Of a stretch of DNA of 64,000 bases, positions 2,502-47,328 are shown in pieces (within the stretch, counting starts at the first letter, position 1; each line of letters starts with the position of its first letter). The stretch spans positions 1,736,001 to 1,800,000 of the forward strand of contig NZ_JAVIZX010000001.1 in the NCBI RefSeq assembly GCF_031453675.1, given 5' to 3'. Made by a program: the position numbers and the translations under genes. Under the pieces are notes generated by a model, which was given only the letters and a program-made list of their open reading frames with translations, was not told where the DNA came from and made no database searches. Origin of the DNA: Paracidovorax wautersii (lineage in GTDB: Bacteria > Pseudomonadota > Gammaproteobacteria > Burkholderiales > Burkholderiaceae_C).

Positions 2502-2537
2502 GTCCGTAGCAGCGGAGGTGGACGCCCTCCGCCGCTG

Positions 2538-3407
2538 CTACCGCCGTGGCGGTATGCGCCGCTGCGGCGTGCTGGCCTGCGCCGCCACCATGTGCGCGCT
2601 GCGCTCGTGGGCGCCGCGCGCCAGGCCGTCGATGAGTGGGGCTTCCGGCAGGTTCTTCCAGTAGCGCGTGGGCATCTCGCGCCGCATCATGGCGAGCTTG
2701 AGGCGCGCCGGGTTGAAGGTGTGGGCGTAGTAGGTGAGCCACAGCGATTCGCCCGCGTCCGCCGCGGGCGCATCGGCCCGCGTGCCGCCCGGGCCTATTT
2801 CCAGCGCCTGGCCGTCCCAGCGCAGGCTGCAGTCGGGCGTAAGGATGGCCCAGCGCATCTGCGTGAACCGCTGCACGAAGAAGCGGGCGTTGGCCTCGGT
2901 GATGAAGTGGTCGGGCTCGAACCAGGCCAGGTGCCAGGGCTCAGCGCCGAGGTCGCCAGTCACGGGCCGGAAGCGCACGAAGGCGCGCATCTTGTGGATG
3001 TCGCGGCGCACGGCGGCGGCCATGCGCGCCAGCCGCACGCGGTCCGGGTCCAGCGCGTCGTGGCGCAGGCCGGGCTTGCGCTGCAGGCGCCACAGCAGCC
3101 GGTAGACCAGCGCGAACCGCTCCGGATGGCGGTGCAGGATGCAGGACTCGCACAGGGCCAGCAGTTCGCGTGGCACGTGCAGCGCCGTTGCCGTTTCCCC
3201 TTCGCTCTTTGGTAGCGGCAGGGCAGGGAGGCGCTCCTCTGCGCCGGCATTCGCGGCGGCAAACAGGCTGTCTTCCGCGTCCCCTTGCACGCGCCATTCC
3301 ACTGCCTCGGGCGCCAGGCCGGCCTGCAGGCAGGCGCGGGCCGACTGGCGAAAGCCTGCCCAGTCGGCTGGGTGGGCGAGCGTGATGCCGTGCAGCGGGG
3401 CGCTCAT
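2538..3407 (-). CDS. DUF4130 / TIGR03915-type DNA metabolism protein (partner of the radical SAM repair enzyme)
   Basis: This 289-residue protein carries the conserved features of the DUF4130 family: HRHPERFALVYRLLWRL, the Arg/Lys-rich VRRDIHKMRAFVRFRP, an FEPDHFITEANARFFVQRF block, and a C-terminal MPTRYWKNLPEAPLI motif. Family members are encoded next to the radical SAM protein found here, or fused to a C-terminal UdgX-type uracil-DNA-binding domain. This copy ends soon after the RYWKNLPEA motif, so the UdgX domain is absent. The ATG overlaps the radical SAM stop codon (ATGA, 3404-3407), so the two are translationally coupled. The biochemical activity is not established as far as I know. 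Confidence 0.85.
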   Translation of the reverse strand: MSAPLHGITLAHPADWAGFRQSARACLQAGLAPEAVEWRVQGDAEDSLFAAANAGAEERLPALPLPKSEGETATALHVPRELLALCESCILHRHPERFALVYRLLWRLQRKPGLRHDALDPDRVRLARMAAAVRRDIHKMRAFVRFRPVTGDLGAEPWHLAWFEPDHFITEANARFFVQRFTQMRWAILTPDCSLRWDGQALEIGPGGTRADAPAADAGESLWLTYYAHTFNPARLKLAMMRREMPTRYWKNLPEAPLIDGLARGAHERSAHMVAAQASTPQRRIPPRR

Positions 3408-4681
3408 GCGAACAACGCACCCTGCGCCGGCGGCGGAGCCAGCAGGGCGGTGAGGCGGGTGGGGTCGCGCAGGCGTTCTGCGGGCCGGTGGTCTGCCACG
3501 GTGACGAAGGGCAGCACCTTGGCCAGCGGCACATGCAGGCGCGCCAGGTCGGCGTGGCGCAGCGCGCGGGCGCGGCGGGCGGCCAGCAGCCGGTCCACCG
3601 TGCGCACGCCCAGGCCGGGCACGCGCAGCAGGCGTTCGCGCACGGCGGTGTTCAGGTCCACGGGGAAGTGCTCGGGGTGGCCGATCGCCCAGGCGAGCTT
3701 GGGGTCCATGTCCAGCGACAGCATGCCGCTCTGGCGTGGCGGCACGATCTCGTCGTGCCGGAAGCCGTAGAAGCGCATCAGCCAGTCGGCTTGGTAGAGG
3801 CGGTGTTCCCGCACCAGCGGCGGGGCCTGCAGCGGCAGCGCGCGCGATGCGTCGGGAATGGGGCTGAAGGCCGAGTAGTACACGCGCCGCAGCTGCAGGC
3901 CGGTGTACAGCTGCGCGCTGGCGGTGAGGATGGTGCGGTCGTCCGCGCCGTCCGCGCCCACGATCATCTGCGTGCTCTGCCCGCCGGGGGCGAAGACGGG
4001 CGCCGCCGCCCGCCGCGTGCGCCCTGGCAGCGAGACGACCTGGCCCGTGCGCTGCTGCTCGGCCCGCGCCTGGCGCGCGTCGGCGATGTGCGTGGCCACG
4101 CGCGCCATCGACCGGCGGATGGCGGGGCCGTTCTTCTCGGGCGCCAGCGCCTCCAGCCCCTGCGCCGTGGGCAGCTCGATGTTGATGCTCAGCCGGTCGG
4201 CATAGCGGCCGGCGCGCTGCAGCAGCTCGGGCGAGGCGTCGGGAATGGTCTTGAGGTGGATGTAGCCGCGGAAGTCGTGCTCCTCGCGCAGCACGCGGGC
4301 CACTTCCACCACGCGCTCCATGGTGTAGTCGGGGCTCTGGATGATGCCGCTGGAGAGGAACAGCCCCTCGATGCAGTTGCGGCGGTAGAAGTCGAGCGTG
4401 AGGTCCACCACTTCCTGCACCGCGAAGCGGGCCCGGGGCACGTTGCTGCTCACGCGGTTCACGCAGTACAGGCAGTCGTACTGGCAATAGTTGGTGAACA
4501 GGATCTTGAGCAGCGAGATGCAGCGCCCATCCGGCGCATAGCTGTGGCAGATGCCCATGCCTTCGGTGGAGCCGATGCCGCGCCCGCCCTGCGAGTGGCG
4601 CGCCGTCGTGCCGCTGGAGGCGCAGGACGCGTCGTACTTGGCTGCGTCGGCCAGGATGGCGAGCTTGGATTCGGTGTTCAC
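3404..4681 (-). CDS. Putative DNA modification/repair radical SAM protein (TIGR03916 family)
   Basis: This 425-residue protein has the 4Fe-4S motif C66-x3-C70-x2-C73 (NYCQYDCLYC) of radical SAM enzymes, plus further Cys at 20, 45 and 54 that may bind a second cluster. A helix-hairpin-helix DNA-binding segment (RERLLRVPGLGVRTVDRLLAA) lies near the C-terminus. The family is predicted to act on damaged or modified DNA, in the manner of spore photoproduct lyase. The start is a GTG at 4679-4681; a stop codon lies 21 bases upstream in frame. A LexA box covers the start region, so SOS induction is expected. It is coupled to the DUF4130 gene downstream. The exact reaction is unknown. Confidence 0.88.
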   Translation of the reverse strand: MNTESKLAILADAAKYDASCASSGTTARHSQGGRGIGSTEGMGICHSYAPDGRCISLLKILFTNYCQYDCLYCVNRVSSNVPRARFAVQEVVDLTLDFYRRNCIEGLFLSSGIIQSPDYTMERVVEVARVLREEHDFRGYIHLKTIPDASPELLQRAGRYADRLSINIELPTAQGLEALAPEKNGPAIRRSMARVATHIADARQARAEQQRTGQVVSLPGRTRRAAAPVFAPGGQSTQMIVGADGADDRTILTASAQLYTGLQLRRVYYSAFSPIPDASRALPLQAPPLVREHRLYQADWLMRFYGFRHDEIVPPRQSGMLSLDMDPKLAWAIGHPEHFPVDLNTAVRERLLRVPGLGVRTVDRLLAARRARALRHADLARLHVPLAKVLPFVTVADHRPAERLRDPTRLTALLAPPPAQGALFA

Positions 4682-4696
4682 TGTATGAATTTACAG
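4681..4696 (-). promoter_or_regulatory. LexA (SOS) box at the start of the radical SAM operon
   Basis: The 16 bases fit CTGT-N8-ACAG exactly, with the AT-rich centre typical of gamma/beta-proteobacterial LexA sites, and the symmetry extends one base each side (ACTGT/ACAGT). The box abuts and overlaps by one base the GTG start of the repair gene. Bound LexA would block transcription or initiation until DNA damage. Recognition by eye only; no weight matrix was run. Confidence 0.8.
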
Positions 4697-46491: not shown

Positions 46492-47328
46492 TCAGGCCGT
46501 GCCGGCGGCGCTGCGCACGAGCGCCAGCGCGCGGCACAGATCGGCCCAGGCGGCCGCCTTGGCATCGGGCGCGCGCAGCAGGTAGGCCGGGTCATAGCTC
46601 ACCACGGCGGGCACGGCCGTGCCGTCCGGCGCGGTGATCTGGTGCACACCGGCGCGCAGCCGGCCCAGGGGTTCGCGGCTGCCCAGCACGGCGCGCGCCG
46701 CGCCCAGCCCCAGCAGCAGCACCATCGCCGGCCGTGCCGTCGCCAGGGTGTGCGCCAGCGCAGCGGCGGGCTCGGCACCCGCGGCGGCGCTGCTGCCGGG
46801 CTGCGGGCGCTCCAGCGTGGCCACCAGCGTGCGCGGATGGCGGTGCAGGCGCATGGCGCGCAGCATGTTGTCCAGCAGCTTGCCGGCGTCCCCGGCCAGG
46901 GGCTCGGCGGGCGTGGCGCTTTCCAGCACCACCAGCCAGCCCGCGCCCAGTTCGGCGGGCGTGCCGGCCGGGTCTGCGGACGGGTAGACCGCCACGGAGG
47001 AATGGAGCACCAGGTGCAGAGGTGCCGCTGACGCGACGCCGGTGCCTGCCGGTGCCGCCGCGGGCGTGTGTGCGGCTGCCGGGACCTGTGCCGGCCGGGG
47101 CTTTGCGGCTGCCGGCATGGCGGCGGGTTTCGGCGCCCCTCCGGGAGCGGTGGGTGGTTCCGCCGCGCGGGCGGTGGTCGGTGCCCCAGGGGCTGCCATC
47201 GCCGCGGCTGCAGGTGACGCCGCTACGGGTGCAGAGGAGGGGGGCGTTTCGCGGGCCACAGGCGCCCAGACGGAGATGCCCATCTCCTGCAGCATGGCGC
47301 GCTGGCGCGGGTCGAGGTCCAGGCTCAT
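46492..47328 (-). CDS. Uracil-DNA glycosylase-like protein, catalytic motifs degenerate
   Basis: This protein of 278 residues has a Pro/Ala-rich linker (about residues 25-100) and a C-terminal family-4 UDG-like domain. The region aligned with GExPG...GPAGxLLD reads LVVLESATPAEPLAGDAGKLLDNML, so the GEAPG motif is missing, and the HPAYLLR motif reads YDPAYLLRAPDAKAAAW, with the His replaced by Asp. Glycosylase activity is therefore doubtful. The gene overlaps rimI (ATGA). In E. coli the gene beside rimI is holD (polymerase III psi), so a replisome or DNA-binding role is a speculative option. Confidence 0.75.
   Translation of the reverse strand: MSLDLDPRQRAMLQEMGISVWAPVARETPPSSAPVAASPAAAAMAAPGAPTTARAAEPPTAPGGAPKPAAMPAAAKPRPAQVPAAAHTPAAAPAGTGVASAAPLHLVLHSSVAVYPSADPAGTPAELGAGWLVVLESATPAEPLAGDAGKLLDNMLRAMRLHRHPRTLVATLERPQPGSSAAAGAEPAAALAHTLATARPAMVLLLGLGAARAVLGSREPLGRLRAGVHQITAPDGTAVPAVVSYDPAYLLRAPDAKAAAWADLCRALALVRSAAGTA

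Follow-up and report, generated by a model that had tools for sequence, protein, structure and literature searches.

The closest described relatives of the locus analyzed here are the COG1573-COG4277 operons, which form part of predicted SOS networks in Bacteroidetes and, as cited in the same paper, had been reported under SOS regulation as a uracil-DNA glycosylase (UDG)-based system in Verrucomicrobia and Alphaproteobacteria (PMC8565304). The available portions of the papers cited, to which all our statements about the literature refer, describe this pair as a putative base excision repair system tied to misincorporation by error-prone polymerases (PMC8565304) and link DUF4130 with SplB-like radical S-adenosylmethionine (SAM) proteins and uracil glycosylases (PMC3765255). 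For Acidovorax citrulli, boxes upstream of radical SAM proteins and of DNA modification/repair proteins are mentioned with the data not displayed (PMC6595937), and other LexA regulons include a radical SAM protein of unspecified kind (PMC7739468, PMC9380542). No activity for the pair was found in the accessible literature on DUF4130, on UdgX together with radical SAM, or on the family names. Here, we describe a radical SAM/DUF4130 operon in a 64,000-nucleotide stretch of the Paracidovorax wautersii chromosome (contig NZ_JAVIZX010000001.1, positions 1,736,001 to 1,800,000; hereafter, the window). We take COG4277 to be TIGR03916, the family of the radical SAM protein, and COG1573 to be the UdgX/DUF4130 protein.

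On this correspondence of the COG families, the window operon would share its gene pair with the COG1573-COG4277 SOS operons, and LexA-type control before the operon is a second common trait. It differs from them in its betaproteobacterial LexA box, in a DUF4130 protein that lacks a UDG domain, and in the fusion of the box to the start codon. The same two families are paired in NCBIfam as TIGR03916/TIGR03915, and a regulatory site and a clamp-type tail fall outside those descriptions as far as they were available. An initial sequence-only reading of this DNA had held that the families were predicted to act on DNA from association alone, a statement that was outdated, SOS control of the pair being already published (PMC8565304). 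The window operon is not a first; it is a betaproteobacterial case, well supported, of an SOS gene pair already known. The near-universality of the upstream motifs, the clamp-type tail, the fused operator and start codon, and the motif used by Xanthomonads were absent from the portions of the literature examined.

Family membership of both products is clear. The radical SAM protein scores 546.5 bits against TIGR03916 (putative DNA modification/repair radical SAM protein; curated cutoff, 343.5), the only model it matches at an E value of ≤0.001; the SplB model TIGR04070 gives no match. Its partner scores 212.4 bits against TIGR03915 (cutoff, 112.25) and 121.3 bits against PF13566 (cutoff, 27). 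The two genes share an ATGA overlap, as expected from the translational coupling proposed by the sequence-only reading. A DUF4130 gene lies downstream of the radical SAM gene in 100/101 loci (by motif or tblastn; locus L125 is not part of this count), and the single exception, L097, is at a contig end. In a control search, TIGR03916 also gave a signal in Caulobacter vibrioides.

The box upstream of the radical SAM gene matches CTGT-N8-ACAG, the box of most Betaproteobacteria (PMC6595937), without a mismatch and is the sole exact match within the window. It had been read as abutting the GTG; the contact is real, but the two actually overlap, the last G of the box being the G of GTG. The frame offers no start codon ahead of this GTG (4681-4679) and none between it and K6, where the invariant residues begin; the operator and the start codon therefore have one base in common. 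No ribosome-binding sequence was seen by eye before the GTG. A bare exact box proves nothing alone because the pattern is expected 0.73 times per window (at least once in 52/100 shuffles). The match could thus be fortuitous in a GC-rich genome and the operon free of SOS control, and 18 of the 25 exact boxes in the genome do have a core of at most 5/8 A/T. In the other seven, to which the window box (L011) belongs, A/T makes up at least 7/8 of the core, versus about 0.03 such boxes expected from base composition. Boxes of this kind also stand before two imuA genes (L008 and L101), before a PA0069-family radical SAM gene (L106), and about 310 nt 5′ of an SRAP gene with a 70-codon open reading frame (ORF) between (L107). 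The last two, L014 and L016 (at ∼2532205 and ∼2923551), have no assigned gene, and a 103-amino-acid (aa) ORF adjoining the L016 box has no Pfam match. The lexA gene of the same genome carries two one-mismatch boxes, CTGGTAAAAAATACAG and CTGGATTAAAAAACAG.

Conservation was assessed in named orthologues (the best 80 of 585 confirmed, assigned to classes by record title) and in a family draw of one genome per genus (120 genomes). The 150 nt before a conserved codon were scanned for CTGT-N8-ACAG, allowing up to one mismatch and requiring A/T at 5 or more of the 8 core positions. Such a box was present at 30/34 named betaproteobacterial loci (17 exact) versus 19/9877 background windows, and at 20/21 anchored family loci (14 exact) versus 7/5793 background windows (0.1%); some loci belong to both sets, and L091, whose site is 92 nt from the start, is a doubtful case among those counted. 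With L125, where an exact CTGTATAAATATACAG occurs in the 150 nt before the ATG, the family total is 21/22, so that the box anticipated for close relatives by the sequence-only reading is found in nearly all of them. A chance box is very improbable and was rejected on this conservation and on core composition, and other classes substitute their own lineage motifs, as described below. With a box in the promoter, conservation in orthologues, and lexA in the genome, the operon has the attributes of a LexA regulon member: SOS control is very probable, and LexA control, judged by comparison, is nearly certain.

Table 1. Features of the radical SAM/DUF4130 operon (positions are those of the window)
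Feature	Position	Strand	Remarks
Radical SAM gene, TIGR03916	3404-4681	-	425 aa
DUF4130 gene, TIGR03915	2538-3407	-	289 aa; stand-alone, without UdgX
ATGA overlap	3404-3407	-	Radical SAM stop codon/DUF4130 start
LexA box CTGT-N8-ACAG	4681-4696	.	CTGTATGAATTTACAG on the + strand; CTGTAAATTCATACAG on the coding strand
Presumptive -10 hexamer TAAATT	4688-4693	-	Inside the box; from the relatives' consensus TATATT and spacing; weak
Radical SAM motif C66-xxx-C70-xx-C73 (CQYDCLYC)	4463-4486	-	CxxxCxxC present
Helix-hairpin-helix region, residues 340-371	3569-3664	-	
QGALF, residues 420-424	3410-3424	-	Beta-clamp-binding-type motif QxxLF; C terminus reads QGALFA
GC-rich hairpin, candidate shared terminator	2506-2541	.	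Where the operon end converges with that of Ribosomal_S30AE (+ strand); no T run

The GTTC-N7-GTTC repeat is the LexA box of Alphaproteobacteria. Among the same best 80 of 585 orthologues, exact GTTC-N7-GTTC or GAAC-N7-GAAC precedes 22/23 alphaproteobacterial loci (background, ∼0.3%). Xanthomonadal loci carry a palindrome instead, GTCTCA-N5-TGAGAC with at most one mismatch, in 20 of 22 usable cases (13 exact; background, 0/6378), L052 being excluded for too little upstream DNA. The Xanthomonadal count is not an independent test because the palindrome was derived from these same loci. An even draw across the phylum found the gene above the family cutoff in 72/299 genomes, and a damage-type motif lies within 200 nt upstream in 70/71 carriers (own genome excluded; three of the 71 also belong to the family draw, and background rates come from the 150-nt test). 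Outside the window's class, GTTC/GAAC-N7 repeats were found in 49/49 carriers, one of which also matches CTGT-N8-ACAG; the 22 inside it comprise 19 with CTGT-N8-ACAG, 2 with the Xanthomonad palindrome, and 1 (L225) with neither.

Ten loci from Bradyrhizobium and relatives (L056, L068, L078, L082, L087, L090, L093 to L095, and L098) have the GTTC-N7-GTTC box and also 3 to 4 GANTC sites in the 110 nt before the operon, versus 0.15 expected. We take GANTC to be CcrM-type sites, and the cluster hints at CcrM-type methylation or cell cycle control. GARTCAA-N3-GATTC was considered as a repressor site in Bradyrhizobium and was rejected: it is itself a cluster of GANTC sequences, and the GTTC-N7-GTTC box is farther upstream. 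An ImuA-like ORF diverges from the operon at three loci of Bradyrhizobium/Rhodopseudomonas; the one that was scanned scored 41 bits against ImuA, below the 150-bit cutoff, and with this match only, the name is provisional. A homologue (∼49% identity) on a human fecal contig filed as phage (L223) has CAAACAAATGTTCG upstream, which differs from the Firmicutes LexA box by one mismatch.

The fusion of operator and start codon recurs among the orthologues. A box was present in 50/53 scanned loci, and in 31 of these 50 the start codon begins with the last G of the box; for 16 of the other 19, a start codon is within 30 nt. The box consensus, CACTGTATATTCATACAGTGAATA, has an asymmetrical core with 1.1 bits per position versus 0.16 in the flank (the scan itself imposes the conservation of the arms, and the core was selected only for A/T). 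The TATATT in this core would place the transcription start at or beside the GTG, which would yield a leaderless mRNA. From the scan of these loci, a fused box, presumptive −10 element, and start codon would usually be the design of this promoter.

The radical SAM protein has six cysteines that do not vary among 31 aligned proteins and that two homologues of about 50% identity (L222 and L223) retain: the three of the radical SAM motif and C20, C45, and C54, nearer the N terminus. The latter three are perhaps a second cluster or a metal site, which is a guess from their invariance. A helix-hairpin-helix (HhH) tail, also part of the sequence-only reading, holds for the family, as 28 of the 31 aligned members match PF12836 at an E value of ≤0.1, and is weak in the window member (E = 0.0036; 17.8 bits, below the 27-bit cutoff). 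SplB (TIGR04070) and PA0069-family proteins have the radical SAM motif in common with the window protein, and the PA0069-family gene of the same genome shares the A/T-core LexA box; the window protein is set apart by its HhH tail and DUF4130 partner.

The C terminus of the protein carries a QxxLF motif of the type found in beta-clamp clients. The beta-clamp-binding motif is defined as QL[S/D]LF or, generally, QxxLF, with QLSLPL in Hda (PMC12309361). Among 100 orthologues (the 80 named ones, that is, the best 80 of 585, and 20 from the family draw, partly overlapping), 96 have a clamp-type motif in the last 18 residues, 79 in the form Q..[LMIF][FL] and 17 in the form Q[LI].[LMF].[LF], compared with 3.0% of shuffled tails and 4/399 products of neighboring ORFs. 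Neither form occurs in L023, L033, L133, or L074, the last of which ends in QMQLPF. Relatives at about 49 to 62% identity also have such motifs (QLSFF, as in L223 near the C terminus; QLSLGF; and QLSLF). The two highest TIGR03916 scores by far, 652 and 659 bits, belong to L125, with its exact LexA box about 150 nt 5′ of the ATG and a C-terminal QLDLVF, and to L225, with no recognized upstream motif and a C-terminal QLALF.

It is likely, from this conservation, that the tail binds the beta clamp. A described parallel is the ImuA-ImuB-DnaE2 mutasome, in which ImuB acts via a beta-clamp-binding motif (PMC10421592). Like the window operon, two imuA genes of the same genome are preceded by LexA-type boxes. 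ImuB is a polymerase-like hub, whereas the clamp partner proposed here would be a radical enzyme. No publication joining radical SAM with clamp binding was among the literature matches listed. If the prediction is true, the tail tells where the enzyme works, gives an easy assay, and makes the question of which lesion is processed testable.

The DUF4130 protein of the window, reported as stand-alone in the sequence-only reading, is indeed so: its 289 aa end soon after the DUF4130 domain, there is no UDG domain match, and the C-terminal UDG domain with GEQPG that marks a UdgX fusion is missing. In the comparison, proteins were scored as fused if they had GEQPG or a tail of more than 150 aa, a domain search not being part of the scoring. 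By this measure, alphaproteobacterial DUF4130 proteins are fused in 22 cases (1 not scored) and Xanthomonadal ones in 19 (3 stand-alone and 1 not scored). The betaproteobacterial and family set (n = 55) divides into 26 stand-alone, 21 fused, 1 cut, and 7 not scored, all 7 of which do have DUF4130. UdgX thus looks like an optional module, and the stand-alone DUF4130 found here separates the core function from UdgX.

These counts bear on a second explanation, in which the pair is an accessory of uracil/abasic-site repair: UdgX would capture uracil, ribonucleotides, or abasic sites left by SOS polymerases, and the pair would finish the repair. The UdgX-type extension in 22/22 scored alphaproteobacterial and 19/22 scored Xanthomonadal loci speaks for it, and it comes close to the published guess of base excision repair (PMC8565304). 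Stand-alone DUF4130 is nevertheless common in the window's own group (26/55), and many stand-alone loci retain the box, which makes UdgX unlikely as the core activity. UdgX was also sought elsewhere in the genome and the idea abandoned, GEQPG being absent from every frame of the three PF03167 loci. On balance, we consider this explanation unlikely, although it is the most serious competitor to lesion processing by the pair itself. One of the PF03167 matches lies in the window (46537-46905, minus strand; 37 bits; 309-codon frame) and is not UdgX by motif. Another observation from the same genome is a tandem repeat translating as CLPACLPA or AGRQAGRQ that adjoins an ung-like gene (L219, at ∼894 kb).

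The explanation that we favor overall, with somewhat better than even confidence, is an SOS operon whose clamp-delivered radical SAM enzyme acts with DUF4130 on a base lesion. In the undamaged cell, transcription would be blocked by LexA bound to the box, which covers the start codon as well as the presumptive −10 element. RecA filaments would trigger LexA cleavage and allow synthesis of a probably leaderless mRNA, to be translated into the radical SAM enzyme and, through coupling at the ATGA, into DUF4130. The C-terminal QxxLF hook would deliver the enzyme via the beta sliding clamp to stalled forks or gaps, the HhH region serving as a DNA-binding tail that may help delivery to DNA. There, the [4Fe-4S]/SAM center would direct hydrogen abstraction chemistry at the lesion, and the radical SAM protein and DUF4130 would together process a base lesion in the template. 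The pair may act beside ImuA-type translesion machinery, apparently under the same repressor, and in relatives the DUF4130-fused UdgX would add the capture of uracil or abasic sites. Gene families, gene order, the conserved box, and the tail motif can be read from the sequence; repression and induction, the leaderless start, clamp binding, a second cluster, and action on DNA lesions are inferred. Confidence differs among the parts of this scheme. DNA is the probable substrate, and direct radical repair of the lesion at the fork has a little less than an even chance.

Several observations weigh against this scheme. Nothing within TIGR03916 points to a particular lesion, and even conserved short linear motifs can mislead. 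No solved structure is convincingly like either protein; each has two weak matches, one of these being to a ComEA-like protein over a short HhH stretch. Only 23/120 of the family genomes (own included) carry the radical SAM gene, so the function is dispensable. No recognizable box was found in the 150-nt test at four of the 34 named betaproteobacterial loci (L023, L024, L045, and L048), and a box is also missing from L126 in the family draw, L225 in the phylum draw, L075 among the Alphaproteobacteria, and both Luteibacter loci. A sigma-70 scan of the operon promoter returned no site at threshold, so the −10 element is one that we infer.

Alternatively, the operon could serve an SOS-controlled modification of DNA (or RNA), for example, for defense or as a mark, the radical SAM protein alkylating or otherwise altering bases with DUF4130 as a coenzyme. 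Methylation and methylthiolation of nucleic acids are common activities among radical SAM enzymes, and the family name itself reads “DNA modification/repair.” The genes behind the other A/T-core boxes, where assigned, are of translesion or repair type, and we regard modification as improbable. Returning to repair, the fullest form of the proposal is put forward tentatively: a radical SAM DNA repair enzyme that rides the clamp, SOS induced and hooked to DnaN, working with DUF4130 on template lesions at forks, with UdgX optional. It would be a core damage response gene acquired by the regulator of each lineage, an undescribed one in the case of Xanthomonadaceae. The lineage-specific upstream motifs make the operon a tracer for damage regulators, such as that of Xanthomonadaceae.

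The Xanthomonad palindrome (loci L111 to L124, L159 to L168, L175, L180, and L185) differs from the LexA box of the same genomes, TTAG-N6-TACTA. Its end is 23 nt from the start codon in 15 of the 19 radical SAM loci measured. Six Xanthomonadaceae genomes contain exact copies at 15 places, 1 to 4 per genome, versus 0 for the reversed control. Five precede this operon, two uvrA, four a DEAD/DEAH helicase gene, and one a PA0069-type start (83-codon ORF); at the remaining three, all in one Lysobacter genome, no repair gene was recognized. In a seventh genome, the exact palindrome occurs three times, upstream of uvrA, of a PA0069 gene, and of the helicase gene. With at most one mismatch, 54 places were found in the six genomes (14 exact) versus 3 for the reversed control. 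Inspection of 27 of the 40 one-mismatch places gave mraZ (5), imuA (2), umuD (1), a macrodomain gene (1), and this operon (2), with no repair gene recognized at the other 16. The mraZ palindromes lie about 140 to 200 nt from that gene, and at least four of the five are flanked on their far side by a divergent gene. Family searches covered one example each of uvrA, the helicase, full-length PA0069, umuD, the macrodomain gene, and mraZ and both imuA genes; the others were assigned visually, by sharing those N-terminal sequences; the score of the helicase fragment falls below the cutoff of its model.

The regulator that reads the palindrome was not found among nine Peptidase_S24 and 18 WYL-gene loci. 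Four lexA-like loci among the nine (from four genomes) have TTAGTAGTAATACTA or TTAGTAGTATTACTA and, with one mismatch allowed, lack the palindrome; another, L195, has neither a LexA-type box nor the palindrome. One-mismatch palindromes at S24 loci were seen upstream of umuD, whose promoter carries a LexA box besides the palindrome, and within the reading frame of a gene resembling XRE/S24 repressors (L200). At the WYL-gene loci, the palindrome was absent even at two mismatches. The distribution of the motif would fit an undescribed regulator that reads GTCTCA-N5-TGAGAC at this operon, uvrA, imuA, umuD, the DEAD-box helicase gene, the PA0069-type gene, and the mraZ division cluster, beside the LexA that uses TTAG-N6-TACTA.

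A plasmid or phage origin of the operon was considered and, from the records of relatives, rejected. Relatives occur on 158 plasmid records, 142 of which are predicted to be non-mobilizable, and on 10 “phage” records, one of which looks bacterial: L222 (CAKLQH020000003.1), filed as Acinetobacter phage, contains glyS, glyQ, and this operon and resembles a piece of a bacterial chromosome. In one genome of the window's family (G055; L146/L147), the radical SAM gene is distributed over two reading frames with a box still upstream, representing a pseudogene or a sequencing error. Among the neighbors of the window operon, only the Ribosomal_S30AE and DUF924 genes were identified. The hairpin at the convergent gene ends folds at −26.1 kcal/mol (z = −2.4), a value equaled by 1/200 shuffles.

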